A stretch of 64,000 nt of DNA from Xanthostigma xanthostigma (lineage: Eukaryota; Arthropoda; Insecta; Raphidioptera; Raphidiidae), in the NCBI GenBank assembly GCA_963575645.1, contig OY754465.1:29771501-29835500 (forward strand), written 5' to 3'. The notes below the pieces were generated by a model. The model saw only the letters and a list, made by a program, of their open reading frames with translations, did no database searches and was not told the DNA's origin. The position numbers and the translations under genes are program-made. Below are positions 31,928-57,805 of this stretch, one piece after another. Numbering within the stretch: the stretch's first letter is position 1; each line of letters opens with the position of its first letter.

Positions 31928-32092
31928 GGTTTGGATCATTCTCTCATAAGAAAATTCAAACTGCATATTAACTATTATTTTAACGCATACAAGCAGTTTT
32001 TACAAGCTTTATGACAATTAGGTGCAAATGAGTCCTTATAGGCAAAATTGCTTTATTTCATGAGGGTTAGTCTATTTACACTATAACATTCA
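31928..32092 (+). repeat. Subtype D monomer
   Basis: Diagnostic bases are ATTAACTATTATTTTAAC, TTACAAGCTTTATGAC (AAGC where other subtypes have ATGC) and CATGAGGG. This copy has AAAATTCAAAC, a private change, and GGGTTAG. A branch with GCGAACTGC occurs near 5085, 20750, 27836, 35088 and 61134, and usually also has TATAAGC instead of TATAGGC. Confidence 0.82.
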
Positions 32093-32550
32093 GGTTTGGA
32101 TCATTCGCTCATAAGAAAATGCAAACTGCATATTTACTATCATTTTAACGCATACAAGCAGTTTTTACATGCTTTATGACAATTAGGTGCAAATGAGTCT
32201 TTATAGGCAAAATTGCTTTATTTCATGTAGGTAAGTCTATTTACACTATAACATTCAGGTTTGGATCATTCTCTCATAAGAAAATGCAAACTGCATATTA
32301 ACCATTATTTTAACGCATACAAGCAATTTTTACATGCTTTATGACAATTAGGGGCAAATGAGTCCTTATAGGCAAAATTGCTTTATTTCATGAAGGTAAG
32401 TCTATTTACACTATAATATTCAGGTTTGGATCATTCTCTCATAAGAAAATGCAAACTGCATATTAACCATTATTTTAACGCTACAAGCAGTTTTTACATG
32501 CTTTATGACAATTAGGGGCAAATGAGTCCTTATAGGCAAAATTGCTTTAT

Positions 32551-35387
32551 TTCATGAGGGTAAGTCTATTTACACTATAACATTCAGGTTTGGATCATTC
32601 GCTCATAAGAAAATGCAAACTGCATATTTACTATCATTTTAACGCATACAAGCAGTTTTTACATGCTTTATGACAATTAGGTGCAAATGAGTCTTTATAG
32701 GCAAAATTGCTTTATTTCATGAAGGTAAGTCTATTTACACTATAACATTCAGGTTTGGATCATTCTCTCATAAGAAAATGCAAACTGCATATTAACCATT
32801 ATTTTAACGCATACAAGCAATTTTTACATGCTTTATGACAATTAGAGGCAAATGAGTCCTTATAGGCAAAATTGCTTTATTTCATAAAGGTAAGTCTATT
32901 TACACTATAATATTCAGGTTTGGATCATTCTCTCATAAGAAAATGCAAACTGCATATTAACCATTATTTTAACGCTACAAGCAGTTTTTACATGCTTTAT
33001 GACAATTAGGTGCAAATGAGTCCTTATAGGCAAAATTGCTTTATTTTACAAAGGTAAGTCTATTTTCACTATAACATTCAGGTTTGGATCATTCTCTCAT
33101 AAGAAAATGCAAACTGCATATTAACTATTATTTTAACGCATACAAGCAGTTTTTACAAGCTTTATGACAATTAGGTGCAAATGAGTCCTTATAGGCAAAA
33201 TTGCTTTATTTCATGAGGGTAAGTCTATTTACACTATAACATTCAGGTTTGGATCATTCGCTCATAAGAAAATGCAAACTGCATATTTGCTATCATTTTA
33301 ACGCATACAAGCAGTTTTTACATGCTTTATGACAATTAGGTGCAAATGAGTCTTTATAGGCAAAATTGCTTTATTTCATGTAGGTAAGTCTATTTACACT
33401 ATAACATTCAGGTTTGGATCATTCTCTCATAAGAAAATGCAAACTGCATATTAACCATTATTTTAACGCTACAAGCAGTTTTTACATGCTTTATGACAAT
33501 TAGGGGCAAATGAGTCCTTATAGGCAAAATTGCTTTATTTCATGAAGGTAAGTCTATTTACACTATAACATTCAGGTTTGGATCATTCTCTCATAAGAAA
33601 ATGCAAACTGCATATTAACCATTATTTTAACGCAGACAAGCAGTTTTTACATGCTTCACGACAATTGCGTGCAAATGAGTCCTTATAGGCAAAATTGCTT
33701 TATTTTACAAAGGTAAGTTTATTTACACTATAACATTCAGGTTTGGATCATTCTCTCATAAGAAAATGCAAACTTCATATTAACCATTATTTAAACGCAG
33801 ACAAGCAGTTTTTACATGCTTTACGACAATTAGGTGCAAATGAGTCTTTATAGGCAAAATTGTTTTATTTCATGAGGGTAAGTCTATTTACACTATAACA
33901 TTCAGGTTTGGATCATTATCTCATAAGAAAATGCAAACTGCATATTAACCATTATTTTAACGCATACAAGCAGTTTTTACATGCTTTATGACAATTAGGG
34001 GCAAATGAGTCCTTATAGGCAAAATTGCTTTATTTCATGAAGGTTAGTCTATTTACACTATAACATTCAGGTTTGGATCATTCTCTCATAAGAAAATGCA
34101 AACTGCATATTAACCATTATTTTAACGCATACAAGCAGTTTTTACATGCTTTATGACAATAAGGGCCAAATGAGTCCTTATAGGCAAAATTGCTTTAATT
34201 CATGAAGGTAAGTCTATTTACACTATAATATTCAGGTTTGGATCATTCTCTCATAAGAAAATGCAAACTGCATATTAACCATTATTTTAACGCTACAAGC
34301 AGTTTTTACATGCTTTATGACAATTAGGGGCAAATGAGTCCTTATAGGCAAAATTGCTTTATATCATGAAGGTAAGTGTATTTACACTATAACATTCAGG
34401 TTTGGATCATTCTCTCATAAGAAAATGCAAACTGCATATTAACCATTATTTTAACGCAGACAAGCAGTTTTTACATGCTTTATGACAATTAGGGGCAAAT
34501 GAGTCCTTATAGGCAAAATTGCTTTATTTCATGAAGGTAAGTCTATTTACACTATAATATTCAGGTTTGGATCATTCTCTCATAAGAAAATGCAAACTGC
34601 ATATTAACCATTATTTTAACGCTACAACCAGTTTTTACATGCTTTATGACAATTAGGTGCAAATGAGTCCTTATAGGCAAAATTGCTTTATTTTACAAAG
34701 GTAAGTCTATTTACACTATAACATTCAGGTTTGGATCATTCTCTCATAAGAAAATGCAAACTGCATATTAACAATTATTTTAACGCATGCAAGAAGTTTT
34801 TACATGCTTTATGACAATTAGGGGCAAATGAGTCCTTATAGGCAAAATTGCTTTATTTTATGAAGGTAAGTCTATTTACACTATAACATTCAGGTTTGGA
34901 TCATTCTCTCTTAAGAAAATGCAAACTGCATATTAACCATTATTTAAACGCAGACAAGCAGTTTTTACATGCTTTACGACAATTAGGTGCAAATGAGTCC
35001 TTATAGGCAAAATTGCTTTATTTTACAAAGGTAAGTCTATTTTCTTTATAACATTCAGGTTTGGATCATTCTCTCATAAGAAAATGCGAACTGCATATTA
35101 ACTATTATTTTAACGCATACAAGCAGTTTTTACAAGCTTTATGACAATTAGGTGCAAATGAGTCCTTATAAGCAAAATTGCTTTATTTCATGAGGGTAAG
35201 TCTATTTACACTATAACATTCAGGTTTGGATCATTCGCTCATAAGAAAATGCAAACTGCATATTTACTATCATTTTAACGCATACAAGCAGTTTTTACAT
35301 GCTTTATGACAATTAGGGCCAAATGAGTCCTTATAGGCAAAATTGCTTTATTTTACAAAGGTAAGTCTATTTACACTATAACATTCA
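32551..35387 (+). repeat. Segment joining A-B-C-D modules to shared E/I/C blocks
   Basis: A-B-C-D-A runs from 32587. The A monomer at 33246 carries TTTGCTATC and CATGTAGG and is followed by C', E, an I-like monomer with AACTTCATATT and TTGTTTTATT, and monomers with TCATTATCTC and ATAAGGGCCA. The same series appears from 37860, 40992 and 47751, but here the B monomer after A is absent. From about 34456 the segment matches 27190-28030 (GCTACAACCAG at 34621, 7250 bp after 27371). TTAATTGC near 35479 belongs to the next block. Confidence 0.78.
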
Positions 35388-38316
35388 GGTTTGGATCATT
35401 CTCTCATAAGAAAATGCAAACTGCATATTAACCATTATTTTAACGCATACAAGCAGTTTTTACATGCTTTATGACAATTAATTGCAAATGAGTCCTTATA
35501 GGCAAAATTGCTTTATTTCATGAGGGTAAGTCTATTTACACTATAACATTCAGGTTTGGATCATTCGCTCATAAGAAAATGCAAACTGCATATTTACTAT
35601 CATTTTAACGCATACAAGCAGTTTTTACATGCTTTATGACAATTAGGTGCAAATGAGTCTTTATAGGCAAAATTGCTTTATTTCATGAAGGTAAGTCTAT
35701 TTACACTATAACATTTAGGTTTGGATCATTCTCTCATAAGAAAATGCAAACTGCATATTAACCATTATTTTAACGCATACAAGCAATTTTTACATGCTTT
35801 ATGACAATTAGGGGCAAATGAGTCCTTATAGGCAAAATTGCTTTATTTCATAAAGGTAAGTCTATTTACACTATAATATTCAGGTTTGGATCATTCTCTC
35901 ATAAGAAAATGCAAACTGCATATTAACCATTATTTTAACGCTACAAGCAGTTCTTACATGCTTTATGACAATTAGGTGCAAATGAGTCCTTATAGGCAAA
36001 ATTGCTTTATTTTACAAAGGTAAGTCTATTTTCACTATAACATTCAGGTTTGGATCATTCTCTCATAAGAAAATGCAAACTGCATATTAACTATTATTTT
36101 AACGCATACAAGCAGTTTTTACAAGCTTTATGACAATTAGGTGCAAATGAGTCCTTATAGGCAAAATTGCTTTATTTCATGAGGGTAAGTCTATTTACAC
36201 TATAAAATTCAGGTTTGGATCATTCGCTCATAAGAAAATGCAAACTGCATATTTACTATCATTTTAACGCATACAAGCAGTTTTTACATGCTTTATGACA
36301 ATTAGGTGCAAATGAGTCTTTATAGGCAAAATTGCTTTATTTCATGAAGGTAAGTCTATTTATTCTATAACATTCAGGTTTGGATCATTCTCTCATAAGA
36401 AAATGCAAACTGCATATTAACCATTATTTTCACGCAGACAAGCAGTTTTTACATACTTTACGACAATTAGGTGCAAATGAGTCTTTATAGGCAAAATTGC
36501 TTTATTTCATGAGGGTAAGTCTATTTACACTATAACATTCAGGTTTGGATCATTCTCTCATAAGAAAATGCAAACTGCATATTTACTATCATTTTAACGC
36601 AGACAAGCAGTTTTTACATGCTTCACGACAATTGCGTGCAAATGAGTCCTTATACTCAAAATTGCTTTATTTTACAAAGGTAAGTCTATTTACACTATAA
36701 CATTCAGGTTTGGATCATTCTCTCATAAGAAAATGCAAACTGCATATTAACCATTATTTAAACGCATACAAGCAGTTTTTACATGCTTTATGACAATTAG
36801 GGGCAAATGAGTCCTTATAGGCAAAATTGCTTTATTTTATGAAGGTAAGTCTATTTACACTATAACATTCAGGTTTGGATCATTCTCTCATAAGAAAATG
36901 CAAACTGCATATTAACCATTATTTAAACGCAGACAAGCAGTTTTTACATGCTTTACGACAATTAGGTGCAAATGAGTCCTTATAGGCAAAATTGCTTTAT
37001 TTTACAAAGGTAAGTCTATTTTCACTATAACATTCAGGTTTGGATCATTCTCTCATAAGAAAATGCAAACTGCATATTAACTATTATTTTAACGCATACA
37101 AGCAGTTTTTACAAGCTTTATGACAATTAGGTGCAAATGAGTCCTTATAGGCAAAATTGCTTTATTTCATGAGGGTAAGTCTATTTACACTATAACATTC
37201 AGGTTTGGATCATTCGCTCATAAGAAAATGCAAACTGCATATTTACTATCATTTTAACGCATACAAGCAGTTTTTACATGCTTTATGACAATTAGGTGCA
37301 AATGAGTCTTTATAGGCAAAATTGCTTTATTTCATGAAGGTAAGTCTATTTACACTATAACATTCAGGTTTGGATCATTCTCTCATAAGAAAATGCAAAC
37401 TGCATATTAACCATTATTTTAACGCATACAAGCAAAAAAACATGCTTTATGACAATTAGAGGCAAATGAGTCCTTATAGGCAAAATTGCTTTATTTCATA
37501 AAGGTAAGTCTAATTACACTATAATATTCAGGTTTGGATCATTCTCTCATAAGAAAATGCAAACTGCATATTAACCATTATTTTAACGCTACAAGCAGTT
37601 TTTACATGCTTTATGACAATTAGGTGCAAATGAGTCCTTATAGGCAAAATTGCTTTATTTTACAAAGGTAAGTCTATTTTCACTATAACATTCAGGTTTG
37701 GATCATTCTCTCATAAGAAAATGCAAACTGCATATTAACTATTATTTTAACGCATACAAGCAGTTTTTACAAGCTTTATGACAATTAGGTGCAAATGAGT
37801 CCTTATAGGCAAAATTGCTTTATTTCATGAGGGTAAGTCTATTTACACTATAACATTCAGGTTTGGATCATTCGCTCATAAGAAAATGCAAACTGCATAT
37901 TTGCTATCATTTTAACGCATACAAGCAGTTTTTACATGCTTTATGACAATTAGGTGCAAATGAGTCTTTATAGGCAAAATTGCTTTATTTCATGTAGGTA
38001 AGTCTATTTACACTATAACATTCAGGTTTGGATCATTCTCTCATAAGAAAATGCAAACTGCATATTAACCATTATTTTAACGCATACAAGCAATTTTTAC
38101 ATGCTTTATGACAATTAGGGGCAAATGAGTCCTTATAGGCAAAATTGCTTTATTTCATGAAGGTAAGTCTATTTACACTATAATATTCAGGTTTGGATCA
38201 TTCTCTCATAAGAAAATGCAAACTGCATATTAACCATTATTTTAACGCTACAAGCAGTTTTTACATGCTTTATGACAATTAGGGGCAAATGAGTCCTTAT
38301 AGGCAAAATTGCTTTA
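35388..38316 (+). repeat. 18-monomer block, copy 2 (pairs with 29620-32550)
   Basis: Same monomer order as 29620-32550. Private changes are CAATTAATTGC near 35476 and the A7 tract at 37434-37440, which replaces the usual AATTTTTA and shortens the monomer by 1 bp. Downstream the A monomer at 37860 has TTTGCTATC, whereas the paired monomer at 32093 has TTTACTATC. Confidence 0.86.
37434..37440. other. A7 tract replacing the T run of a B monomer
   Basis: AGCAAAAAAACATGC stands where every other B monomer has AGCAATTTTTACATGC. It is one base shorter and the only A7 run I noticed in the array. It may be a local mutation or a consensus or sequencing error at a homopolymer. Confidence 0.85.
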
Positions 38317-39012
38317 TTTCATGAAGGTAAGTCTATTTACACTATAACATTCAGGTTTGGATCATTCTCTCATAAGAAAATGCAAACTGCATATTAACCA
38401 TTATTTTAACGCAGACAAGCAGTTTTTACATGCTTCACGACAATTGCGTGCAAATGAGTCCTTATAGGCAAAATTGCTTTATTTTACAAAGGTAAGTTTA
38501 TTTACACTATAACATTCAGGTTTGGATCATTCTCTCATAAGAAAATGCAAACTTCATATTAACCATTATTTAAACGCAGACAAGCAGTTTTTACATGCTT
38601 TACGACAATTAGGTGCAAATGAGTCTTTATAGGCAAAATTGTTTTATTTCATGAGGGTAAGTCTATTTACACTATAACATTCAGGTTTGGATCATTATCT
38701 CATAAGAAAATGCAAACTGCATATTAACCATTATTTTAACGCATACAAGCAGTTTTTACATGCTTTATGACAATAAGGGCCAAATGAGTCCTTATAGGCA
38801 AAATTGCTTTAATTCATGAAGGTAAGTCTATTTACACTATAATATTCAGGTTTGGATCATTCTCTCATAAGAAAATGCAAACTGCATATTAACCATTATT
38901 TTAACGCTACAAGCAGTTTTTACATGCTTTATGACAATTAGGGGCAAATGAGTCCTTATAGGCAAAATTGCTTTATATCATGAAGGTAAGTCTATTTACA
39001 CTATAACATTCA

Positions 39013-42000
39013 GGTTTGGATCATTCTCTCATAAGAAAATGCAAACTGCATATTAACCATTATTTTAACGCAGACAAGCAGTTTTTACATGCTTCACGAC
39101 AATTGCGTGCAAATGAGTCCTTATAGGCAAAATTGCTTTATTTTACAAAGGTAAGTTTATTTACACTATAACATTCAGGTTTGGATCATTCTCTCATAAG
39201 AAAATGCAAACTGCATATTAACCATTATTTTAACGCAGACAAGCAGTTTTTACATACTTTACGACAATTAGGTGCAAATGAGTCTTTATAGGCAAAATTG
39301 CTTTATTTCATGAGGGTAAGTCTATTTACACTATAACATTCAGGTTTGGATCATTCTCTCATAAGAAAATGCAAACTGCATATTTACTATCATTTTAACG
39401 CAGACAAGCAGTTTTTACATGCTTCACGACAATTGCGTGCAAATGAGTCCTTATAGGCAAAATTGCTTTATTTTACAAAGGTAAGTCTATTTACACTATA
39501 ACATCCAGGTTTGGATCATTCTCTCATAGGAAAATGCAAACTGCATATTAACCATTATTTTAACGCATACAAGCAGTTTTTACATGCTTTATGACAATTA
39601 GGGGCAAATGAGTCCTTATAGGCAATATTGCTTTATTTTATGAAGGTAAGTCTATTTACACTATAACATTCAGGTTTGGATCATTCTCTCATAAGAAAAT
39701 GCAAACTGCATATTAACAATTATTTAAACGCAGACAAGCAGTTTTTACATGCTTTACGACAATTAGGTGCAAATGAGTCCTTATAGGCAAAATTGCTTTA
39801 TTTTACAAAGGTAAGTCTATTTTCACTATAACATTCAGGTTTGGATCATTCTCTCATAAGAAAATGCAAACTGCATATTAACTATTATTTTAACGCATAC
39901 AAGCAGTTTTTACAAGCTTTATGACAATTAGGTGCAAATGAGTCCTTATAGGCAAAATTGCTTTATTTCATGAGGGTAAGTCTATTTACACTATAACATT
40001 CAGGTTTGGATCATTCGCTCATAAGAAAATGCAAACTGCATATTTACTATCATTTTAACGCATACAAGCAGTTTTTACATGCTTTATGACAATTAGGTGC
40101 AAATGAGTCTTTATAGGCAAAATTGCTTTATTTCATGAAGGTAGGTCTATTTACACTATAACATTCAGGTTTGGATCATTCTCTCATAAGAAAATGCAAA
40201 CTGCATATTAACCATTATTTTAACGCATACAAGCAATTTTTACATGCTTTATGACAATTAGAGGCAAATGAGTCCTTATAGGCAAAATTGCTTTATTTCA
40301 TGAGGGTAAGTCTATTTACACTATAACATTCAGGTTTGGATCATTCGCTCATAAGAAAATGCAAACTGCATATTTACTATCATTTTAACGCATACAAGCA
40401 GTTTTTACATGCTTTATGACAATTAGGTGCAAATGAGTCTTTATAGGCAAAATTGCTTTATTTCATGAAGGTAAGTCTATTTACACTATAACATTCAGGT
40501 TTGGATCATTCTCTCATAAGAAAATGCAAACTGCATATTAACCATTATTTTAACGCATACAAGCAATTTTTACGTGCTTTATGACAATTAGAGGCAAATG
40601 AGTCCTTATAGGCAAAATTGCTTTATTTCATAAAGGTAAGTCTATTTACACTATAATATTCAGGTTTGGATCATTCTCTCATAAGAAAATGCAAACTGCA
40701 TATTAACCATTATTTTAACGCTACAAGCAGTTTTTACATGCTTTATGACAATTAGGTGCAAATGAGTCCTTATAGGCAAAATTGCTTTATTTTACAAAGG
40801 TAAGTCTATTTTCACTATAACATTCAGGTTTGGATCATTCTCTCATAAGAAAATGCAAACTGCATATTAACTATTATTTTAACGCATACAAGCAGTTTTT
40901 ACAAGCTTTATGACAATTAGGTGCAAATGAGTCCTTATAGGCAAAATTGCTTTATTTCATGAGGGTAAGTCTATTTACACTATAACATTCAGGTTTGGAT
41001 CATTCGCTCATAAGAAAATGCAAACTGCATATTTGCTATCATTTTAACGCATACAAGCAGTTTTTACATGCTTTATGACAATTAGGTGCAAATGAGTCTT
41101 TATAGGCAAAATTGCTTTATTTCATGTAGGTAAGTCTATTTACACTATAACATTCAGGTTTGGATCATTCTCTCATAAGAAAATGCAAACTGCATATTAA
41201 CCATTATTTTAACGCATACAAGCAATTTTTACATGCTTTATGACAATTAGGGGCAAATGAGTCCTTATAGGCAAAATTGCTTTATTTCATGAAGGTAAGT
41301 CTATTTACACTATAATATTCAGGTTTGGATCATTCTCTCATAAGAAAATGCAAACTGCATATTAACCATTATTTTAACGCTACAAGCAGTTTTTACATGC
41401 TTTATGACAATTAGGGGCAAATGAGTCCTTATAGGCAAAATTGCTTTATTTCATGAAGGTAAGTCTATTTACACTATAACATTCAGGTTTGGATCATTCT
41501 CTCATAAGAAAATGCAAACTGCATATTAACCATTATTTTAACGCAGACAAGCAGTTTTTACATGCTTCACGACAATTGCGTGCAAATGAGTCCTTATAGG
41601 CAAAATTGCTTTATTTTACAAAGGTAAGTTTATTTACACTATAACATTCAGGTTTGGATCATTCTCTCATAAGAAAATGCAAACTTCATATTAACCATTA
41701 TTTAAACGCAGACAAGCAGTTTTTACATGCTTTACGACAATTAGGTGCAAATGAGTCTTTATAGGCAAAATTGTTTTATTTCATGAGGGTAAGTCTATTT
41801 ACACTATAACATTCAGGTTTGGATCATTATCTCATAAGAAAATGCAAACTGCATATTAACCATTATTTTAACGCATACAAGCAGTTTTTACATGCTTTAT
41901 GACAATTAGGGGCAAATGAGTCCTTATAGGCAAAATTGCTTTATTTCATGAAGGTTAGTCTATTTACACTATAACATTCAGGTTTGGATCATTCTCTCAT

Positions 42001-45000
42001 AAGAAAATGCAAACTGCATATTAACCATTATTTTAACGCATACAAGCAGTTTTTACATGCTTTATGACAATAAGGGCCAAATGAGTCCTTATAGGCAAAA
42101 TTGCTTTAATTCATGAAGGTAAGTCTATTTACACTATAATATTCAGGTTTGGATCATTCTCTCATAAGAAAATGCAAACTGCATATTAACCATTATTTTA
42201 ACGCTACAAGCAGTTTTTACATGCTTTATGACAATTAGGGGCAAATGAGTCCTTATAGGCAAAATTGCTTTATATCATGAAGGTAAGTCTATTTACACTA
42301 TAACATTCAGGTTTGGATCATTCTCTCATAAGAAAATGCAAACTGCATATTAACCATTATTTTAACGCAGACAAGCAGTTTTTACATGCTTCACGACAAT
42401 TGCGTGCAAATGAGTCCTTATAGGCAAAATTGCTTTATTTTACAAAGGTAAGTTTATTTACACTATAACATTCAGGTTTGGATCATTCTCTCATAAGAAA
42501 ATGCAAACTGCATATTAACCATTATTTTAACGCAGACAAGCAGTTTTTACATACTTTACGACAATTAGGTGCAAATGAGTCTTTATAGGCAAAATTGCTT
42601 TATTTCATGAGGGTAAGTCTATTTACACTATAACATTCAGGTTTGGATCATTCTCTCATAAGAAAATGCAAACTGCATATTTACTATCATTTTAACGCAG
42701 ACAAGCAGTTTTTACATGCTTCACGACAATTGCGTGCAAATGAGTCCTTATAGGCAAAATTGCTTTATTTTACAAAGGTAAGTCTATTTACACTATAACA
42801 TCCAGGTTTGGATCATTCTCTCATAAGAAAATGCAAACTGCATATTAACCATTATTTTAACGCATACAAGCAGTTTTTACATGCTTTATGACAATTAGGG
42901 GCAAATGAGTCCTTATAGGCAATATTGCTTTATTTTATGAAGGTAAGTCTATTTACACTATAACATTCAGGTTTGGATCATTCTCTCATAAGAAAATGCA
43001 AACTGCATATTAACAATTATTTAAACGCAGACAAGCAGTTTTTACATGCTTTACGACAATTAGGTGCAAATGAGTCCTTATAGGCAAAATTGCTTTATTT
43101 TACAAAGGTAAGTCTATTTTCACTATAACATTCAGGTTTGGATCATTCTCTCATAAGAAAATGCAAACTGCATATTAACTATTATTTTAACGCATACAAG
43201 CAGTTTTTACAAGCTTTATGACAATTAGGTGCAAATGAGTCCTTATAGGCAAAATTGCTTTATTTCATGAGGGTAAGTCTATTTACACTATAACATTCAG
43301 GTTTGGATCATTCGCTCATAAGAAAATGCAAACTGCATATTTACTATCATTTTAACGCATACAAGCAGTTTTTACATGCTTTATGACAATTAGGTGCAAA
43401 TGAGTCTTTATAGGCAAAATTGCTTTATTTCATGAAGGTAAGTCTATTTACACTATAACATTCAGGTTTGGATCATTCTCTTATAAGAAAATGCAAACTG
43501 CATATTAACCATTATTTTAACGCATACAAGCAATTTTTACATGCTTTATGACAATTAGGGGCAAATGAGTGCTTATAGGCAAAATTGCTTTACTTCATAA
43601 AGGTAAGTCTATTTACACTATAATATTCAGGTTTGGATCATTCTCTCATAAGAAAATGCAAACTGCATATTAACCATTATTTTAACGCTACAAGCAGTTT
43701 TTACATGCTTTATGACAATTAGGTGCAAATGAGTCCTTATAGGCAATATTGCTTTATTTTATGAAGGTAAGTCTATTTACACTATAACATTCAGGTTTGG
43801 ATCATTCTCTCATAAGAAAATGCAAACTGCATATTAACAATTATTTAAACGCAGACAAGCAGTTTTTACATGCTTTACGACAATTAGGTGCAAATGAGTC
43901 CTTATAGGCAAAATTGCTTTATTTTACAAAGGTAAGTCTATTTTCACTATAACATTCAGGTTTGGATCATTCTCTCATAAGAAAATGCAAATTGCATATT
44001 AACTATTATTTTAACGCATACAAGCAGTTTTTACAAGCTTTATGACAATTAGGTGCAAATGAGTCCTTATAGGCAAAATTGCTTTATTTCATGAGGGTAA
44101 GTCTATTTACACTATAACATTCAGGTTTGGATCATTCGCTCATAAGAAAATGCAAACTGCATATTTACTATCATTTTAACGCATACAAGCAGTTTTTACA
44201 TGCTTTATGACAATTAGGTGCAAATGAGTCTTTATAGGCAAAATTGCTTTATTTCATGAAGGTAAGTCTATTTACACTATAACATTCAGGTTTGGATCAT
44301 TCTCTTATAAGAAAATGCAAACTGCATATTAACCATTATTTTAACGCATACAAGCAATTTTTACATGCTTTATGACAATTAGGGGCAAATGAGTCCTTAT
44401 AGGCAAAATTGCTTTACTTCATAAAGGTAAGTCTATTTACACTATAATATTCAGGTTTGGATCATTCTCTCATAAGAAAATGCAAACTGCATATTAACCA
44501 TTATTTTAACGCTACAAGCAGTTTTTACATGCTTTATGACAATTAGGTGCAAATGAGTCCTTATAGGCAAAATTGCTTTATTTTACAAAGGTAAGTCTAT
44601 TTTCTCTATAACATTCAGGTTTGGATCATTCTCTCATAAGAAAATGCAAACTGCATATTAACTATTATTTTAACGCATACAAGCAGTTTTTACAAGCTTT
44701 ATGACAATTAGGTGCAAATGAGTCCTTATAGGCAAAATTGCTTTATTTCATGAGGGTAAGTCTATTTACACTATAACATTCAGGTTTGGATCATTCGCTC
44801 ATAAGAAAATGCAAACTGCATATTTACTATCATTTTAACGCATACAAGCAGTTTTTACATGCTTTATGACAATTAGGTGCAAATGAGTCTTTATAGGCAA
44901 AATTGCTTTATTTCATGAAGGTAAGTCTATTTACACTATAACATTCAGGTTTGGATCATTCTCTCATAAGAAAATGCAAACTGCATATTAACCATTATTT

Positions 45001-45771
45001 TAACGCATACAAGCAATTTTTACATGCTTTATGACAGTTAGGGGCAAATGAGTCCTTATAGGCAAAATTGCTTTATTTCATGAAGGTAAGTCTATTTACA
45101 CTATAATATTCAGGTTTGGATCATTCTCTCATAAGAAAATGCAAACTGCATATTAACCATTATTTTAACGCTACAAGCAGTTTTTACATGCTTTATGACA
45201 ATTAGGGGCAAATGAGTCCTTATAGGCAAAATTGCTTTATTTTACAAAGGTTAGTCTATTTTTACTATAACATTCAGGTTTGGATCATTCTCTCATAAGA
45301 AAATGCAAACTGCATATTAACTATTATTTTAACGCATACAAGCAGTTTTTACAAGCTTTATGACAATTAGGTGCAAATGAGTCCTTATAGGCAAAATTGC
45401 TTTATTTCATGAGGGTAAGTCTATTTACACTATAACATTCAGGTTTGGATCATTCGCTCATAAGAAAATGCAAACTGCATATTAACCATTATTTTAACGC
45501 AGACAAGCAGTTTTTACATGCTTTATGACAATTAGGGGCAAATGAGTCCTTATAGGAAAAATTGCTTTATTTTATGAAGGTAAGTCTATTTACACTATAA
45601 CATTCAGGTTTGGATCATTCTCTCATAAGAAAATGCAAACTGCATATTAACCATTATTTAAACGCAGACAAGCAGTTTTTACATGCTTTACGACAATTAG
45701 GTGCAAATGAGTCTTTATAGGCAAAATTACTTTATTTCATGAGGGTAAGTCTATTTACACTATAACATTCA
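39013..45771 (+). repeat. 41-mer HOR, unit 1 (6759 bp)
   Basis: The unit begins with E-F-G-H-I and ends just before the E monomer at 45772. Markers recurring 6759 bp later are ACATCCAGG at 39501/46260, TAGGTCTATT at 40142/46901, the TTTGC A monomer at 40992/47751, ACATCCAGG at 42798/49557 and GAGTGCTTAT at 43567/50326. Internally it splits into a 20-mer (39013-42309, 3297 bp) and a 21-mer (42310-45771). Both open with E-F-G-H-I and share the ACATCCAGG marker, so an older 20-mer duplication is nested inside. Confidence 0.9.
43300..44947 (+). repeat. 10-monomer block with nested 5-mer (pairs with 55993-57640)
   Basis: The order is A, B, C-like, I, D, A, B, C, D, A. The first five are followed 824 bp later by another A-B (TCTTATAAG marker at 43480/44304). 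The C-like monomer is a hybrid: it begins as C but carries GCAATATTGC and TTATGAAGG of H. The GCAAATTGC variant of D lies near 43988. The same order recurs at 55993, 12693 bp downstream, and in part near 50058 within 41-mer unit 2. Confidence 0.82.
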
Positions 45772-48700
45772 GGTTTGGATCATTCTCTCATAAGAAAATG
45801 CAAACTGCATATTAACCATTATTTTAACGCAGACAAGCAGTTTTTACATGCTTCACGACAATTGCGTGCAAATGAGTCCTTATAGGCAAAATTGCTTTAT
45901 TTTACAAAGGTAAGTTTATTTACACTATAACATTCAGGTTTGGATCATTCTCTCATAAGAAAATGCAAACTGCATATTAACCATTATTTTAACGCAGACA
46001 AGCAGTTTTTACATACTTTACGACAATTAGGTGCAAATGAGTCTTTATAGGCAAAATTGCTTTATTTCATGAGGGTAAGTCTATTTACACTATAACATTC
46101 AGGTTTGGATCATTCTCTCATAAGAAAATGCAAACTGCATATTTACTATCATTTTAACGCAGACAAGCAGTTTTTACATGCTTCACGACAATTGCGTGCA
46201 AATGAGTCCTTATAGGCAAAATTGCTTTATTTTACAAAGGTAAGTCTATTTACACTATAACATCCAGGTTTGGATCATTCTCTCATAGGAAAATGCAAAC
46301 TGCATATTAACCATTATTTTAACGCATACAAGCAGTTTTTACATGCTTTATGACAATTAGGGGCAAATGAGTCCTTATAGGCAATATTGCTTTATTTTAT
46401 GAAGGTAAGTCTATTTACACTATAACATTCAGGTTTGGATCATTCTCTCATAAGAAAATGCAAACTGCATATTAACAATTATTTAAACGCAGACAAGCAG
46501 TTTTTACATGCTTTACGACAATTAGGTGCAAATGAGTCCTTATAGGCAAAATTGCTTTATTTTACAAAGGTAAGTCTATTTTCACTATAACATTCAGGTT
46601 TGGATCATTCTCTCATAAGAAAATGCAAACTGCATATTAACTATTATTTTAACGCATACAAGCAGTTTTTACAAGCTTTATGACAATTAGGTGCAAATGA
46701 GTCCTTATAGGCAAAATTGCTTTATTTCATGAGGGTAAGTCTATTTACACTATAACATTCAGGTTTGGATCATTCGCTCATAAGAAAATGCAAACTGCAT
46801 ATTTACTATCATTTTAACGCATACAAGCAGTTTTTACATGCTTTATGACAATTAGGTGCAAATGAGTCTTTATAGGCAAAATTGCTTTATTTCATGAAGG
46901 TAGGTCTATTTACACTATAACATTCAGGTTTGGATCATTCTCTCATAAGAAAATGCAAACTGCATATTAACCATTATTTTAACGCATACAAGCAATTTTT
47001 ACATGCTTTATGACAATTAGAGGCAAATGAGTCCTTATAGGCAAAATTGCTTTATTTCATGAGGGTAAGTCTATTTACACTATAACATTCAGGTTTGGAT
47101 CATTCGCTCATAAGAAAATGCAAACTGCATATTTACTATCATTTTAACGCATACAAGCAGTTTTTACATGCTTTATGACAATTAGGTGCAAATGAGTCTT
47201 TATAGGCAAAATTGCTTTATTTCATGAAGGTAAGTCTATTTACACTATAACATTCAGGTTTGGATCATTCTCTCATAAGAAAATGCAAACTGCATATTAA
47301 CCATTATTTTAACGCATACAAGCAATTTTTACATGCTTTATGACAATTAGAGGCAAATGAGTCCTTATAGGCAAAATTGCTTTATTTCATAAAGGTAAGT
47401 CTATTTACACTATAATATTCAGGTTTGGATCATTCTCTCATAAGAAAATGCAAACTGCATATTAACCATTATTTTAACGCTACAAGCAGTTTTTACATGC
47501 TTTATGACAATTAGGTGCAAATGAGTCCTTATAGGCAAAATTGCTTTATTTTACAAAGGTAAGTCTATTTTCACTATAACATTCAGGTTTGGATCATTCT
47601 CTCATAAGAAAATGCAAACTGCATATTAACTATTATTTTAACGCATACAAGCAGTTTTTACAAGCTTTATGACAATTAGGTGCAAATGAGTCCTTATAGG
47701 CAAAATTGCTTTATTTCATGAGGGTAAGTCTATTTACACTATAACATTCAGGTTTGGATCATTCGCTCATAAGAAAATGCAAACTGCATATTTGCTATCA
47801 TTTTAACGCATACAAGCAGTTTTTACATGCTTTATGACAATTAGGTGCAAATAAGTCTTTATAGGCAAAATTGCTTTATTTCATGTAGGTAAGTCTATTT
47901 ACACTATAACATTCAGGTTTGGATCATTCTCTCATAAGAAAATGCAAACTGCATATTAACCATTATTTTAACGCATACAAGCAATTTTTACATGCTTTAT
48001 GACAATTAGGGGCAAATGAGTCCTTATAGGCAAAATTGCTTTATTTCATGAAGGTAAGTCTATTTACACTATAATATTCAGGTTTGGATCATTCTCTCAT
48101 AAGAAAATGCAAACTGCATATTAACCATTATTTTAACGCTACAAGCAGTTTTTACATGCTTTATGACAATTAGGGGCAAATGAGTCCTTATAGGCAAAAT
48201 TGCTTTATTTCATGAAGGTAAGTCTATTTACACTATAACATTCAGGTTTGGATCATTCTCTCATAAGAAAATGCAAACTGCATATTAACCATTATTTTAA
48301 CGCAGACAAGCAGTTTTTACATGCTTCACGACAATTGCGTGCAAATGAGTCCTTATAGGCAAAATTGCTTTATTTTACAAAGGTAAGTTTATTTACACTA
48401 TAACATTCAGGTTTGGATCATTCTCTCATAAGAAAATGCAAACTTCATATTAACCATTATTTAAACGCAGACAAGCAGTTTTTACATGCTTTACGACAAT
48501 TAGGTGCAAATGAGTCTTTATAGGCAAAACTGTTTTATTTCATGAGGGTAAGTCTATTTACACTATAACATTCAGGTTTGGATCATTATCTCATAAGAAA
48601 ATGCAAACTGCATATTAACCATTATTTTAACGCATACAAGCAGTTTTTACATGCTTTATGACAATTAGGGGCAAATGAGTCCTTATAGGCAAAATTGCTT

Positions 48701-51700
48701 TATTTCATGAAGGTTAGTCTATTTACACTATAACATTCAGGTTTGGATCATTCTCTCATAAGAAAATGCAAACTGCATATTAACCATTATTTTAACGCAT
48801 ACAAGCAGTTTTTACATGCTTTATGACAATAAGGGCCAAATGAGTCCTTATAGGCAAAATTGCTTTAATTCATGAAGGTAAGTCTATTTACACTATAATA
48901 TTCAGGTTTGGATCATTCTCTCATAAGAAAATGCAAACTGCATATTAACCATTATTTTAACGCTACAAGCAGTTTTTACATGCTTTATGACAATTATGGG
49001 CAAATGAGTCCTTATAGGCAAAATTGCTTTATATCATGAAGGTAAGTCTATTTACACTATAACATTCAGGTTTGGATCATTCTCTCATAAGAAAATGCAA
49101 ACTGCATATTAACCATTATTTTAACGCAGACAAGCAGTTTTTACATGCTTCACGACAATTGCGTGCAAATGAGTCCTTATAGGCAAAATTGCTTTATTTT
49201 ACAAAGGTAAGTTTATTTACACTATAACATTCAGGTTTGGATCATTCTCTCATAAGAAAATGCAAACTGCATATTAACCATTATTTTAACGCAGACAAGC
49301 AGTTTTTACATACTTTACGACAATTAGGTGCAAATGAGTCTTTATAGGCAAAATTGCTTTATTTCATGAGGGTAAGTCTATTTACACTATAACATTCAGG
49401 TTTGGATCATTCTCTCATAAGAAAATGCAAACTGCATATTTACTATCATTTTAACGCAGACAAGCAGTTTTTACATGCTTCACGACAATTGCGTGCAAAT
49501 GAGTCCTTATAGGCAAAATTGCTTTATTTTACAAAGGTAAGTCTATTTACACTATAACATCCAGGTTTGGATCATTCTCTCATAAGAAAATGCAAACTGC
49601 ATATTAACCATTATTTTAACGCATACAAGCAGTTTTTACATGCTTTATGACAATTAGGGGCAAATGAGTCCTTATAGGCAATATTGCTTTATTTTATGAA
49701 GGTAAGTCTATTTACACTATAACATTCAGGTTTGGATCATTCTCTCATAAGAAAATGCAAACTGCATATTAACAATTATTTAAACGCAGACAAGCAGTTT
49801 TTACATGCTTTACGACAATTAGGTGCAAATGAGTCCTTATAGGCAAAATTGCTTTATTTTACAAAGGTAAGTCTATTTTCACTATAACATTCAGGTTTGG
49901 ATCATTCTCTCATAAGAAAATGCAAACTGCATATTAACTATTATTTTAACGCATACAAGCAGTTTTTACAAGCTTTATGACAATTAGGTGCAAATGAGTC
50001 CTTATAGGCAAAATTGCTTTATTTCATGAGGGTAAGTCTATTTACACTATAACATTCAGGTTTGGATCATTCGCTCATAAGAAAATGCAAACTGCATATT
50101 TACTATCATTTTAACGCATACAAGCAGTTTTTACATGCTTTATGACAATTAGGTGCAAATGAGTCTTTATAGGCAAAATTGCTTTATTTCATGAAGGTAA
50201 GTCTATTTACACTATAACATTCAGGTTTGGATCATTCTCTTATAAGAAAATGCAAACTGCATATTAACCATTATTTTAACGCATACAAGCAATTTTTACA
50301 TGCTTTATGACAATTAGGGGCAAATGAGTGCTTATAGGCAAAATTGCTTTACTTCATAAAGGTAAGTCTATTTACACTATAATATTCAGGTTTGGATCAT
50401 TCTCTCATAAGAAAATGCAAACTGCATATTAACCATTATTTTAACGCTACAAGCAGTTTTTACATGCTTTATGACAATTAGGTGCAAATGAGTCCTTATA
50501 GGCAATATTGCTTTATTTTATGAAGGTAAGTCTATTTACACTATAACATTCAGGTTTGGATCATTCTCTCATAAGAAAATGCAAACTGCATATTAACAAT
50601 TATTTAAACGCAGACAAGCAGTTTTTACATGCTTTACGACAATTAGGTGCAAATGAGTCCTTATAGGCAAAATTGCTTTATTTTACAAAGGTAAGTCTAT
50701 TTTCACTATAACATTCAGGTTTGGATCATTCTCTCATAAGAAAATGCAAATTGCATATTAACTATTATTACGCATACAAGCAGTTTTTACAAGCTTTATG
50801 ACAATTAGGTGCAAATGAGTCCTTATAGGCAAAATTGCTTTATTTCATGAGGGTAAGTCTATTTACACTATAACATTCAGGTTTGGATCATTCGCTCATA
50901 AGAAAATGCAAACTGCATATTTACTATCATTTTAACGCATACAAGCAGTTTTTACATGCTTTATGACAATTAGGTGCAAATGAGTCTTTATAGGCAAAAT
51001 TGCTTTATTTCATGAAGGTAAGTCTATTTACACTATAACATTCAGGTTTGGATCATTCTCTTATAAGAAAATGCAAACTGCATATTAACCATTATTTTAA
51101 CGCTACAAGCAGTTTTTACATGCTTTATGACAATTAGGTGCAAATGAGTCCTTATAGGCAAAATTGCTTTATTTTACAAAGGTAAGTCTATTTTCTCTAT
51201 AACATTCAGGTTTGGATCATTCTCTCATAAGAAAATGCAAACTGCATATTAACTATTATTTTAACGCATACAAGCAGTTTTTACAAGCTTTATGACAATT
51301 AGGTGCAAATGAGTCCTTATAGGCAAAATTGCTTTATTTCATGAGGGTAAGTCTATTTACACTATAACATTCAGGTTTGGATCATTCGCTCATAAGAAAA
51401 TGCAAACTGCATATTTACTATCATTTTAACGCATACAAGCAGTTTTTACATGCTTTATGACAATTAGGTGCAAATGAGTCTTTATAGGCAAAATTGCTTT
51501 ATTTCATGAAGGTAAGTCTATTTACACTATAACATTCAGGTTTGGATCATTCTCTCATAAGAAAATGCAAACTGCATATTAACCATTATTTTAACGCATA
51601 CAAGCAATTTTTACATGCTTTATGACAGTTAGGGGCAAATGAGTCCTTATAGGCAAAATTGCTTTATTTCATGAAGGTAAGTCTATTTACACTATAATAT

Positions 51701-52527
51701 TCAGGTTTGGATCATTCTCTCATAAGAAAATGCAAACTGCATATTAACCATTATTTTAACGCTACAAGCAGTTTTTACATGCTTTATGACAATTAGGGGC
51801 AAATGAGTCCTTATAGGCAAAATTGCTTTATTTCATGAAGGTAAGTCTATTTACACTATAACATTCAGGTTTGGATCATTCTCTCATAAGAAAATGCAAA
51901 CTGCATATTAACCATTATTTAAACGCAGACAAGCAGTTTTTACATGCTTTACGACAATTAGGTGCAAATGAGTCCTTATAGGCAAAATTGCTTTATTTTA
52001 CAAAGGTTAGTCTATTTTTACTATAACATTCAGGTTTGGATCATTCTCTCATAAGAAAATGCAAACTGCATATTAACTATTATTTTAACGCATACAAGCA
52101 GTTTTTACAAGCTTTATGACAATTAGGTGCAAATGAGTCCTTATAGGCAAAATTGCTTTATTTCATGAGGGTAAGTCTATTTACACTATAACATTCAGGT
52201 TTGGATCATTCGCTCATAAGAAAATGCAAACTGCATATTAACCATTATTTTAACGCAGACAAGCAGTTTTTAGATGCTTTATGACAATTAGGGGCAAATG
52301 AGTCCTTATAGGAAAAATTGCTTTATTTTATGAAGGTAAGTCTATTTACACTATAACATTCAGGTTTGGATCATTCTCTCATAAGAAAATGCAAACTGCA
52401 TATTAACCATTATTTAAACGCAGACAAGCAGTTTTTACATGCTTTACGACAATTAGGTGCAAATGAGTCTTTATAGGCAAAATTACTTTATTTCATGAGG
52501 GTAAGTCTATTTACACTATAACATTCA
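45772..52527 (+). repeat. 41-mer HOR, unit 2 (6756 bp)
   Basis: Same series as 39013-45771. Three differences break the exact spacing. A 3-bp deletion (CTATTATTACGC) lies near 50762. One B/C junction is fused near 51060-51110, losing a monomer (GACAGTTAGG at 45033/51624 is 6591 bp apart). An added I-like monomer before 52001 brings the offset to 6756 (CAAAGGTTAG at 45245/52001). The pair ends with the TAGGAAAAATTG and AATTACTTTATT monomers, and an E monomer at 52528 would open a third unit that does not continue. Confidence 0.88.
50758..50772. other. 3-bp deletion in a D monomer
   Basis: TTAACTATTATTACGCATAC replaces the usual form with TTTTAACGC, removing three bases. The partner monomer 6759 bp upstream (near 44000) is intact, so the deletion arose after the 41-mer duplication. 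Length in this region stays a multiple of three. Confidence 0.85.
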
Positions 52528-53517
52528 GGTTTGGATCATTCTCTCATAAGAAAATGCAAACTGCATATTAACCATTATTTTAACGCAGACAAGCAGTTTT
52601 TACATGCTTCACGACAATTGCGTGCAAATGAGTCCTTATAGGCAAAATTGCTTTATTTTACAAAGGTAAGTCTATTTACACTATAACATTCAGGTTTGGA
52701 TCATTCTCTCATAAGAAAATGCAAACTGCATGTTAACCATTATTTTAACGCAGACAAGCAGTTTTTACATGCTTTATGACAATTAGGGGCAAATGAGTCC
52801 TTATAGGCAAAATTGCTTTATTTTATGAAGGTAAGTCTATTTACACTATAACATTCAGGTTTGGATCATTCTCTCATAAGAAAATGCAAACTGCATATTA
52901 ACCATTATTTAAACGCAGACAAGTTGTTTTTACATGCTTTACGACAATTAGGTGCAAATGAGTCCTTATAGGCAAAATTGCTTTATTTTACAAAGGTTAG
53001 TCTATTTTTACTATAACATTCAGGTTTGGATCATTCTCTCATAAGAAAATGCAAACTGCATATTAACTATTATTTTAACGCATACAAGCAGTTTTTACAA
53101 GCTTTATGACAATTAGGTGCAAATGAGTCCTTATAGGCAAAATTGCTTTATTTCATGAGGGTAAGTCTATTTACACTATAACATTCAGGTTTGGATCATT
53201 CGCTTATAAGAAAATGCAAACTGCATATTAACCATTATTTTAACGCAGACAAGCAGTTTTTACATGCTTTATGACAATTAGGGGCAAATGAGTCCTTATA
53301 GGCAAAATTGCTTTATTTTATGAAGGTAAGTCTATTTACACTATAACATTCAGGTTTGGATCATTCTCTCATAAGAAAATGCAAACTGCATATTAACCAT
53401 TATTTAAACGCAGACAAGCAGTTTTTACATGCTTTACGACAATTAGGTGCAAATGAGTCCTTATAGGCAAAATTGCTTTATTTTACAAAGGTAAGTCTAT
53501 TTTTACTATAACATTCA
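52033..53517 (+). repeat. 6-mer duplication (990 bp), second copy truncated
   Basis: CAAAGGTTAG followed by TATTTTTAC occurs at 52001 and 52991, 990 bp apart, and a related GTAAG form at 53486, a further 495 bp on. Unit 1 is 52033-53022: D, an A/H hybrid, I, E, H-like, I-like. The second unit retains D, the A/H hybrid (TTCGCTTATAAG) and I. Private changes are TTAGATGCT near 52269 and AAGTTGTTTTT near 52921. Confidence 0.8.
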
Positions 53518-55002
53518 GGTTTGGATCATTCTCTCATAAGAAAATGCAAACTGCATATTAACCATTATTTTAACGCAGACAAGCAGTTTTTACATGCTTT
53601 ACGACAATTAGGTGCAAATGAGTCTTTATAGGCAAAATTGCTTTATTTCATGAAGGTATAACTATTTACATTATTATATTCAGGTTTGGATCATTCTCTC
53701 ATAAGAAAATGCAAACTGCATATTAACCATTATTCTAACGCAGACAAGCAGTTTTTACATGCTTTACGACAATTAGGTGCAAATGTGTCCTTATAGGCAA
53801 AATTGCTTTATTTCATGAGGGTAAGTCTATTTACACTATAACATTCAGGTTTGGATCATTCGCTCATAAGAAAATGCAAACTGCATATTTACTATCATTT
53901 TAACGCATACAAGCAGTTTTTACATGCTTTATGACAATTAGGTGCAAATGAGTCTTTATAGGCAAAATTGCTTTATTTCATGAAGGTAAGTCTATTTACA
54001 CTATAACATTCAGGTTTGGATCATTCTCTCATAAGAAAATGCAAACTGCATATTAACCATTATTTTAACGCATACAAGCAATTTTTACATGCTTTATGAC
54101 AATTAGGGGCAAATGAGTCCTTATAGGCAAAATTGCTTTATTTTATGAAGGTAAGTCTATTTACACTATAACATTCAGGTTTGGATCATTCTCTCATAAG
54201 AAAATGCAAACTGCATATTAACCATTATTTAAACGCAGACAAGCAGTTTTTACATGCTTTACGACAATTAGGTGCAAATGAGTCCTTATAGGCAAAATTG
54301 CTTTATTTTACAAAGGAAAGTTTATTTACACTATAACATTCAGGTTTGGATCATTCTCTCATAAGAAAATGCAAACTGCATATTAACCATTATTTTAACG
54401 CAGACAAGCAGTTTTTACATGCTTTACGACAATTAGGTGCAAATGAGTCTTTATAGGCAAAATTGCTTTATTTCATGAAGGTATAACTATTTACATTATT
54501 ATATTCAGGTTTGGATCATTCTCTCATAAGAAAATGCAAACTGCATATTAACCATTATTCTAACGCAGACAAGCAGTTTTTACATGCTTTACGACAATTA
54601 GGTGCAAATGAGTCCTTATAGGCAAAATTGCTTTATTTCATGAGGGTAAGTCTATTTACACTATAACATTCAGGTTTGGATCATTCGCTCATAAGAAAAT
54701 GCAAACTGCATATTTACTATCATTTTAACGCATACAAGCAGTTTTTACATGCTTTATGACAATTAGGTGCAAATGAGTCTTTATAGGCAAAATTGCTTTA
54801 TTTCATGAAGGTAAGTCTATTTACACCATAACATTCAGGTTTGGATCATTCTCTCATAAGAAAATGCAAACTGCATATTAACCATTATTTTAACGCATAC
54901 AAGCAATTTTTACATGCTTTATGACAATTAGGGGCAAATGAGTCCTTATAGGCAAAATTGCTTTATTTCATGAAGGTAAGTCTATTTACACTATAACATT
55001 CA
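53518..55002 (+). repeat. 5-mer duplication (825 bp), second copy truncated
   Basis: A distinctive monomer end, TGAAGGTATAACTATT with TTATTATATT, occurs at 53651 and 54476, 825 bp apart. The monomers that follow (53683, 54508) both have ATTCTAACGCAGAC. Unit 1 continues A, B/H hybrid, I (GGAAAGTTTA), F-like. Unit 2 continues A, B, then switches to E at 55003. The first unit is also copied at the right edge of the window (63412-64000, offset 9729 bp). Confidence 0.82.
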
Positions 55003-55662
55003 GGTTTGGATCATTCTCTCATAAGAAAATGCAAACTGCATATTAACCATTATTTTAACGCAGACAAGCAGTTTTTACATGCTTCACGACAATTGCGTGC
55101 AAATTAGTACTTATAGGCAAAATTGCTTTATTTTACAAAGGTAAGTTTATTTACACTATAACATTCAGGTTTGGATCATTCTCTCATAAGAAAATGCAAA
55201 CTGCATATTAACCATTATTTAAACGCAGACAAGCAGTTTTTACATGCTTTACGACAATTAGGTGCAAATGAGTCTTTATAGGCAAAATTGCTTTATTTCA
55301 TGAGGGTAAGTCTATTTACACTATAACATTCAGGTTTGGATCATTCTCTCATAAGAAAATGCAAACTGCATATTAACCATTATTTTAACGCATACAAGCA
55401 CTTTTTACATGCTTTATGACAATTGAGGGCAAATGAGTCCTTATAGGCAAAATTGCTTTATTTCATGAAGGTTAGTCTATTTACACTATAACATTCAGGT
55501 TTGGATCATTCTCTCATAAGAAAATGCAAACTGCATATTAACCATTATTTAAACGCAGACAAGCAGTTTTTACATGCTTTACGACAATTAGGTGCAAATG
55601 AGTCTTTATGGGCAAAATTGCTTTATATCATGAGGGTAAGTCTATTTACACTATACCATTCA
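55003..55662 (+). repeat. 4-monomer block (pairs with 57806-58465, 2803 bp apart)
   Basis: E, I-like, a monomer with GCACTTTTTAC and ATTGAGGGC, and one with TTATGGGC and TATATCATG. Markers pair at 2803 bp: GCACTTTTTAC at 55398/58201 and AGTCTTTATG at 55601/58404. In this copy the last monomer also reads CTATACCATT where the partner has CTATAACATT. That change, together with TTATGGGC, removes two in-frame stops and opens a chance frame over 55501-55776 (see findings). Confidence 0.85.
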
Positions 55663-57805
55663 GGTTTGGATCATTCTCTCATAAGAAAATGCAAACTGCA
55701 TATTAACAATTATTTAAACGCAGACAAGCAGTTTTTACATGCTTTACGACAATTAGGTGCAAATGAGTCCTTATAGGCAAAATTGCTTTATTTTACAAAG
55801 GTAAGTCTATTTTCACTATAACATTCAGGTTTGGATCATTCTCTCATAAGAAAATGCAAACTGCATATTAACTATTATTTTAACGCATACAAGCAGTTTT
55901 TACAAGCTTTATGACAATTAGGTGCAAATGAGTCCTTATAGGCAAAATTGCTTTATTTCATGAGGGTAAGTCTATTTACACTATAACATTCAGGTTTGGA
56001 TCATTCGCTCATAAGAAAATGCAAACTGCATATTTACTATCATTTTAACGCATACAAGCAGTTTTTACATGCTTTATGACAATTAGGTGCAAATGAGTCT
56101 TTATAGGCAAAATTGCTTTATTTCATGAAGGTAAGTCTATTTACACTATAACATTCAGGTTTGGATCATTCTCTTATAAGAAAATGCAAACTGCATATTA
56201 ACCATTATTTTAACGCATACAAGCAATTTTTACATGCTTTATGACAATTAGGGGCAAATGAGTCCTTATAGGCAAAATTGCTTTACTTCATAAAGGTAAG
56301 TCTATTTACACTATAATATTCAGGTTTGGATCATTCTCTCATAAGAAAATGCAAACTGCATATTAACCATTATTTTAACGCTACAAGCAGTTTTTACATG
56401 CTTTATGACAATTAGGTGCAAATGAGTCCTTATAGGCAATATTGCTTTATTTTATGAAGGTAAGTCTATTTACACTATAACATTCAGGTTTGGATCATTC
56501 TCTCATAAGAAAATGCAAACTGCATATTAACAATTATTTAAACGCAGACAAGCAGTTTTTACATGCTTTACGACAATTAGGTGCAAATGAGTCCTTATAG
56601 GCAAAATTGCTTTATTTTACAAAGGTAAGTCTATTTTCACTATAACATTCAGGTTTGGATCATTCTCTCATAAGAAAATGCAAATTGCATATTAACTATT
56701 ATTTTAACGCATACAAGCAGTTTTTACAAGCTTTATGACAATTAGGTGCAAATGAGTCCTTATAGGCAAAATTGCTTTATTTCATGAGGGTAAGTCTATT
56801 TACACTATAACATTCAGGTTTGGATCATTCGCTCATAAGAAAATGCAAACTGCATATTTACTATCATTTTAACGCATACAAGCAGTTTTTACATGCTTAA
56901 TGACAATTAGGTGCAAATGAGTCTTTATAGGAAAAATTGCTTTATTTCATGAAGGTAAGTCTATTTACACTATAACATTCAGGTTTGGATCATTCTCTTA
57001 TAAGAAAATGCAAACTGCATATTAACCATTATTTTAACGCATACAAGCAATTTTTACATGCTTTATGACAATTAGGGGCAAATGAGTCCTTATAGGCAAA
57101 ATTGCTTTACTTCATAAAGGTAAGTCTATTTACACTATAATATTCAGGTTTGGATCATTCTCTCATAAGAAAATGCAAACTGCATATTAACCATTATTTT
57201 AACGCTACAAGCAGTTTTTACATGCTTTATGACAATTAGGTGCAAATGAGTCCTTATAGGCAAAATTGCTTTATTTTACAAAGGTAAGTCTATTTTCTCT
57301 ATAACATTCAGGTTTGGATCATTCTCTCATAAGAAAATGCAAACTGCATATTAACTATTATTTTAACGCATACAAGCAGTTTTTACAAGCTTTATGACAA
57401 TTAGGTGCAAATGAGTTCTTATAGGCAAAATTGCTTTATTTCATGAGAGTAAGTCTATTTACACTATAACATTCAGGTTTGGATCATTCGCTCATAAGAA
57501 AATGCAAACTGCATATTTACTATCATTTTAACGCATACAAGCAGTTTTTACATGCTTTATGACAATTAGGTGCAAATGAGTCTTTATAGGCAAAATTGCT
57601 TTATTTCATGAAGGTAAGTCTATTTACACTATAACATTCAGGTTTGGATCATTCTCTCTTAAGAAAATGCAAACTGCATATTAACCATTATTTTAACGCA
57701 TACAAGCAATTTTTACATGCTTTATGACAATTAGGGGCAAATGAGTTCTTATAGGCAAAATTGCTTTATTTCATGAAGGTTAGTCTATTTACACTATAAC
57801 ATTCA
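55663..57805 (+). repeat. Copy of the 43.3-44.9-kb block plus flanks
   Basis: After I and D monomers, 55993-57640 repeats the ten-monomer order of 43300-44947, including the hybrid C monomer with GCAATATTGC, the GCAAATTGC D monomer and the 824-bp internal spacing (TCTTATAAG at 56173/56997). Private changes are ATGCTTAATGAC near 56894, TAGGAAAAATTG near 56929, GAGTTCTTATA near 57414 and CATGAGAGT near 57442. The last monomer before 57806 has CTCTCTTAAG and GAGTTCTTATA. Confidence 0.82.

Follow-up and report, generated by a model that had tools for sequence, protein, structure and literature searches.

A 41-monomer tandem pair in a 165-bp satellite array of Xanthostigma xanthostigma, one among many recent block copies

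Human alpha satellite includes a 52-mer on chromosome 21 that is present in exactly two copies, diverging from each other by 0.2%, as well as a 34-mer on the Y chromosome (PMC12385485). In the Populus satellite Palv156, higher-order repeats (HORs) are called from 2 monomers upward, and similarity falls with distance (PMC12046899). In Tribolium madens, the major and minor satellites form multi-megabase arrays with a base element of ~110 bp, and the excerpts of that account used here give macro-dyad organisation as documented, according to its describers, only in Tribolium (PMC13081366). As to the processes that shape such arrays, unequal exchange and break-induced replication have been discussed as models (Smith 1976 and Rice 2020, reviewed in PMC8997354), and microhomology-mediated end joining has been argued for in a maize centromere (PMC8997354).

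The DNA analysed here is a stretch of 64,000 nucleotides (the window; C2:29771501-29835500), located on a contig of 69.27 Mb (C2) in an assembly of 623 Mb in 28 contigs; positions without a contig prefix are those of the window, and the array, units, indels and tracts placed within it below are all given on the plus strand. From its first base to its last (1..64000), the window is a single AT-rich tandem array with a 165-bp monomer, for which TRF returns one row (388.2 copies, 93% matches). Cyclic alignment to the consensus yields 388 full monomers in one orientation and one register, beside a 39-bp stub; 324 of these are 165 bp long and 60 are 164 bp, with the others measuring 162, 163, 168 and 168 bp, and truncated junction monomers number zero. 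As every full monomer falls within 162-168 bp, no junction in the window breaks register. The median difference between monomers of the window is 10 of 165 sites (~6%), and average-linkage clustering at a cut of 2.5 differences resolves 86 monomer types. Searched at gathering thresholds, Rfam gave no matches in the window, and a literature search by six satellite sub-sequences and by "165 bp" found no description of this satellite. Successive copies of a 15-mer block lie at 12693-20446, and the 168-bp monomers at 16155 and 18631 both carry the same small insertion.

Two units of 41 monomers stand head to tail in this array, namely unit 1 at 38985..45743 (6759 bp) and unit 2 at 45744..52499 (6756 bp), each delimited by its base-level match to the other. 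In a global alignment, the units agree at all but 5 of 6591 aligned bases (99.92%), with three gaps that measure 3, 165 and 165 bp; this identity is far above that between individual monomers, and the full match pairs 38985-45915 with 45744-52671. When up to 2 differences are allowed per monomer, matching runs in the window extend to 29 monomers; across 200 trials with the monomer order shuffled, none exceeded 5, which places the pair beyond chance. The 41-monomer tandem pair is thus present in the assembly, and the first-pass annotation was right to see a tandem duplication of 6.76 kb, albeit one of two copies and not an HOR array. That annotation had set the start at 39013 and the abutment at 45772; the units do adjoin, with both positions lying 28 bp inside the re-mapped start and junction.

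The spacing of the pair, previously given as exactly 6759 bp, is so up to 44010 (4 mismatches in 5026 bases for 38985-44010 against +6759 bp), after which it becomes 6756, then 6591 and finally 6756 through 45915. At the first of these steps, 3 bp of unit 1 (44011..44013) are missing in unit 2 by alignment, taking the lag from 6759 to 6756. At the second, one monomer's length in unit 1 (44307..44471) is likewise missing in unit 2, taking the lag from 6756 to 6591; the placement of this indel is arbitrary within the repeat, and the type map identifies the missing monomer as type 27, at 44344-44508. The segment at lag 6591 (44472-45242) contains no mismatches. An alignment gap between the units then follows at 45208, and here the type map assigns unit 1 a single monomer of type 67 (45168..45331) with types 13 and 42 as its counterpart in unit 2; the type 67 monomer is probably a fusion produced by the loss of a single monomer in unit 1. 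The equal count of 41 monomers thus stems in part from two single-monomer indels, one per unit, that cancel each other.

As with the 52-mer of human chromosome 21, the block is very long, is present in two complete copies, and has copies far closer to each other than its monomers are (PMC12385485). That 52-mer is an alpha-satellite unit of Willard type with a mean monomer divergence of 17.7%, whereas the present array is a 165-bp satellite with a divergence of ~6% (PMC12385485). Moreover, unlike in the Willard-type 52-mer (PMC12385485), monomer types recur inside the unit; judged at the 2.5-difference cut, types 3, 4, 5, 9, 10, 11, 13, 27, 31 and 42 recur in unit 1, which sets the 41-mer apart from Willard-type repeats. 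Palv156, which is a plant satellite, is likewise described as containing monomer blocks that repeat within an array (PMC12046899). In copying very long blocks, the present array resembles human alpha satellite.

The left edge of the 41-mer (38985) is crossed by another, older duplication (37133-43558). Its first copy, of 19 monomers (37133..40263; lags 3131, 3132 and 3297), begins 1.85 kb to the left of the 41-mer, and its second, of 20 monomers (40264..43558), is defined by alignment to the first; the copies differ by 4 mismatches in 3122 aligned bases, a 165-bp indel and a 2-bp end gap, with a short 7/8-bp misfit near 37436. Within unit 1, recurrence at 3297 bp is confined to 38985-40261, and beyond 40261 the halves cease to match. 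The opening series that had been seen to recur after 3297 bp does exist, with 3 mismatches, as the right-hand end of the duplication that starts at 37133. As the inner pair begins outside the 41-mer, the description of the latter as a 20-mer plus a 21-mer falls away (37133-40263/40264-43558 straddles its left edge), and the nesting is not clean. An HOR of HORs would have its inner repeat wholly inside the outer unit and dividing it, and here the inner repeat spans 37133-43558 and the outer begins at 38985; what survives of that earlier reading is an older duplication of ~20 monomers that was carried into a newer one of 41.

The order of these two events can be read from four 1,211-bp segments, at 38985 and at +3297, +6759 and +10056 from it. 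The first segment equals the third and the second equals the fourth, with three differences between the pairs; the 19/20-mer duplication thus came first, and the later 41-mer exchange cut through it. The 6.76-kb diagonal had been expected to show higher identity than the 3.30-kb diagonal, and it does so in direction (5 mismatches in 6591 bases versus 4 in 3122) but not significantly (Fisher p=0.48); a significantly higher identity for the 41-mer than for the older duplication was thus rejected.

At the junction of the units lies a tract of 172 bp (45744..45915), inside which the exchange point is to be sought. Three sequences, 38985-39156, 45744-45915 and 52500-52671, are identical over this length (0 differences in three pairwise comparisons), the last being the right-hand end of the duplicated match, ~one monomer past unit 2. 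The match thus exceeds the lag by 172 bp, giving 2.03 copies, and the three-way identity confines the exchange point to just over one monomer. Among 20,000 random in-phase comparisons, the identical tract has a median of 20 bp and a 95th percentile of 81 bp once recent duplicates are set aside; a tract of at least 172 bp is found in 0.5% of the remaining pairs, and in 2.8% when recent duplicates are included. A junction that is in register and placed in a long identical tract is what would be expected under either unequal crossing over or break-induced replication. The 41-mer keeps register, and its junction lies in a common identical tract, as out-of-register homologous exchange predicts.

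This does not extend to all blocks. A scan of junction tracts covered nine tandem blocks, of which six were usable (the 11-mer and the 15-mer being broken by indels, and the 21-mer having three copies), and gave tracts of 19, 23, 33, 50, 172 and 261 bp, with the scan tolerating isolated mismatches and the background requiring exact identity, a bias that favours the blocks. Two of the six (172 and 261 bp) exceed the 81-bp 95th percentile; the other four, at only 19-50 bp, are near the background median, and they count against the exchange reading, as does the end joining argued for in maize (PMC8997354).

We consider it very likely that the 41-mer pair stems from one recent out-of-register homologous exchange in the normal turnover of the satellite array. 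The event would have involved two monomers that stand 41 positions from each other and have the identical 172-bp tract in common; it would have proceeded either through unequal sister-chromatid crossing over or through break-induced replication restarting one block behind the fork, thereby doubling the intervening 6.76-kb block. Beforehand, this block would have held the right end of copy 1 and the whole of copy 2 of the earlier 19/20-mer duplication; later divergence of the units would then have introduced the five substitutions, the 3-bp indel and the two single-monomer indels. Which of the two pathways acted is a matter of inference, as is an absence of function for the arrangement. Blocks that are in register, of varied length and nested by age, along with gains and losses of single monomers, are as in unequal-exchange and break-induced-replication models (PMC8997354), and nothing was found here that these models, as excerpted, exclude.

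A partial third copy of the block (33 monomers) occupies window coordinates 103862-109301, 57 kb downstream. It differs from unit 2 at 17 of 5440 aligned bases and by a 656-bp deletion, and it runs on into the right flank of unit 2. Of the five substitutions that distinguish the units, the third copy has the base of unit 1 at four and that of unit 2 at one; with this copy as outgroup, four are derived in unit 2 and the fifth in unit 1. It also aligns with unit 2 without a gap at the position corresponding to 45208, where the monomer loss is thus derived in unit 1. The 3-bp indel lies inside the deletion of the outgroup and the other 165-bp indel at its edge, such that neither is polarised. Derived changes being found in both units, each must have altered after the duplication; this argues against the assembler having simply gone through one block twice, though not against two haplotypes joined end to end.

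An assembly artefact, in which the assembler passed through one block a second time or placed two haplotypes end to end, is improbable on these grounds and others. In its favour, the copies share 99.92% identity, and haplotypes would differ in much the same way; against this, the window contains no N, the five substitutions and three indels include derived changes in both units (a pattern that two haplotypes could also give), the junction does not break register, and duplications of the same kind but of other lengths lie nearby. Extrachromosomal circles of satellite DNA are reportedly treated in a plant study, and a block excised as a circle, replicated, and reinserted beside its source would be a very improbable origin for the present pair. 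Satellite circles are mentioned for Tribolium freemani (PMC13081366), but here there are just 2.03 copies, in place and in source order, with no sequence sign of a circle, and a single exchange is simpler.

How common block copies are around the pair was gauged by a census of 264 kb that includes the window. Near-identical monomers (mostly 2 differences or fewer, with a little more tolerated) were chained into blocks of at least 8 monomers, using 1540 monomers out of 1599 slots after exclusion of 59 that carried an insert or were off-length. Of the usable monomers, 1419 fall in at least one duplicated block. The census lists 252 duplicated block pairs, but one block may be read in several overlapping rows, so that this figure is not a number of events; a strict tandem test admitted 12 of the pairs and left out 240, with the tandem count being too low as the 19/20-mer pair is missing from it. 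These 12 tandem rows have starting lags of 11, 12, 13, 14, 18, 21, 27, 41, 58, 59 and 115 monomers. A fixed HOR period for the array was rejected, as the tandem lags share none. Self-comparison by megablast was insensitive, returning 6 matches only and missing known blocks. A breakpoint hot spot at monomer position 75-82 was also considered and rejected; sites 76, 78, 79 and 81 are among the most variable, and block boundaries pile up at 75-82 because differences are visible there, which is not evidence for a hot spot.

Several of the blocks are larger than the 41-mer. A 59-mer tandem duplication has its first copy at 53702..63463, with a lag of 9729 bp and 6 mismatches in 9762 bp, and its second copy extends past the window to end at C2:29844692; this pair is longer than the 41-mer pair and similar in identity. 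A 57-mer tandem pair, starting ~94 kb upstream of the window, has 3 mismatches in 9416 bp. It forms part of a series of approximately five related units of 57-70 monomers at C2:29673595-29722890 (window -97905 to -48610), and this upstream series is nearer to a true HOR array than is the 41-mer. The suggestion that HORs of such length are uncommon does not apply here, given that the 59-mer and the 57-mer are longer and that 14 of the 252 pairs in 264 kb have more than 41 matched monomers.

Under a definition that asks for distinct monomers head to tail, in blocks far more alike than the monomers themselves, the 41-mer is an HOR; under one that asks for many homogenised copies it is not, with 2.03 tandem copies and one partial copy (33 monomers) within 264 kb. 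Having two copies, it is a local duplication and not a higher-order repeat array, and labelling any two-copy block an "HOR" overstates regularity. The array is a mosaic of local block duplications with no common period, and the 41-mer pair, of two copies, is one among many recent block copies, as is ordinary for such satellite DNA. That the 41-mer is instead a true selected centromeric higher-order repeat unit, as in human alpha satellite, would accord with its distinct head-to-tail monomers and with an identity between blocks far above that within them, but is extremely unlikely in view of its two tandem copies only, the lack of a common period among tandem lags in the 264-kb census (12 rows), and the absence from the window of sites resembling the CENP-B box (core TTCGNNNNANNCGGG, at most 1 mismatch); the upstream series of 57-70-monomer units has ~five of them. 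The 41-mer pair matters little by itself; it is a clean worked example of satellite turnover, in which the order of events and the direction of change are readable from the sequence.

The wider array was sampled in 40 pieces of 1-2 kb, of which the first 20 were scored and 26 of the 40 were placed on the consensus. On C2, the satellite occurs at every sampled place from 29.05 to 32.00 Mb, and in the piece at 29.101-29.103 Mb it is confined to the first 299 bases; it was not seen in the samples at 28.95, 29.00 and 32.30 Mb, and the sample at 28.90 Mb scored at background. Among the pieces sampled on a second contig, C1, it is present at 40.42 and 40.60 Mb and was not seen at 40.2 and 41.0 Mb. 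Genome-wide, a conserved 23-base core of the monomer occurs 51,822 times in forward and 55,639 times in reverse orientation, near strand balance, with a control reading of 0. The most frequent 22-base cores occur 345 times per 388 monomers in the window; if this ratio holds elsewhere, we estimate ~120,000 monomers, amounting to 20 Mb or ~3% of the genome. The samples on C2 place the window in a multi-megabase array, and the position of the satellite in the middle of the chromosome and its abundance suggest that it is probably centromeric or pericentromeric. Elsewhere, at C1:39538742-39560325, a core spacing series of 161-164-166-164-165 recurs at least 4 times within 22 kb among the matches listed, which suggests long block copies on another chromosome too.

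Sampled pieces of C2 also differ in orientation, the satellite being minus at 29.05 Mb, plus from 29.0805 Mb, minus from 29.1005 Mb and plus at 29.13-31.00 Mb, then minus at 31.04 and 31.08 Mb, plus at 31.12 Mb and minus at 31.16-32.00 Mb. Two of the switches are located at base level (C2:29.0805 and 29.1005 Mb), and at least 3 more are implied between 31.00 and 31.16 Mb. No perfect palindromes were found at the two base-level junctions, where the best arms are ~87% complementary over 300 bp in a search that stayed near the ends of its range. Megabase arrays with switches of monomer orientation inside them are as in Tribolium madens (PMC13081366), a likeness drawn from descriptions. The excerpted account of that species treats inverted subarrays with a ~110-bp element, whereas the present array features long direct block duplications of a 165-bp monomer (PMC13081366). 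We raise only tentatively, as a rather doubtful reading, that very long recent block duplications and orientation switches might together make this abundant satellite an insect example of macro-dyad-like organisation outside Tribolium.

Other elements were seen along the way. A Pao-type LTR retrotransposon with a Pfam Peptidase_A17 domain sits in the satellite at C2:29894327-29900631; two identical 236-bp direct repeats lie near its ends, and their identity suggests that the insertion is probably young. A LINE, apparently 5'-truncated and with a TTA-repeat end, lies at C2:29760339-29763256; it has domains for endonuclease and reverse transcriptase. The contig C28 carries mitochondrial genes in the invertebrate code, in the order ND2-COX1-COX2. 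COX1-like fragments occur in the nuclear contigs at C6:1195571-1196020 (two TAA stops) and C2:16906869-16907126 (one TGA only), and these are probable nuclear copies of mitochondrial DNA.
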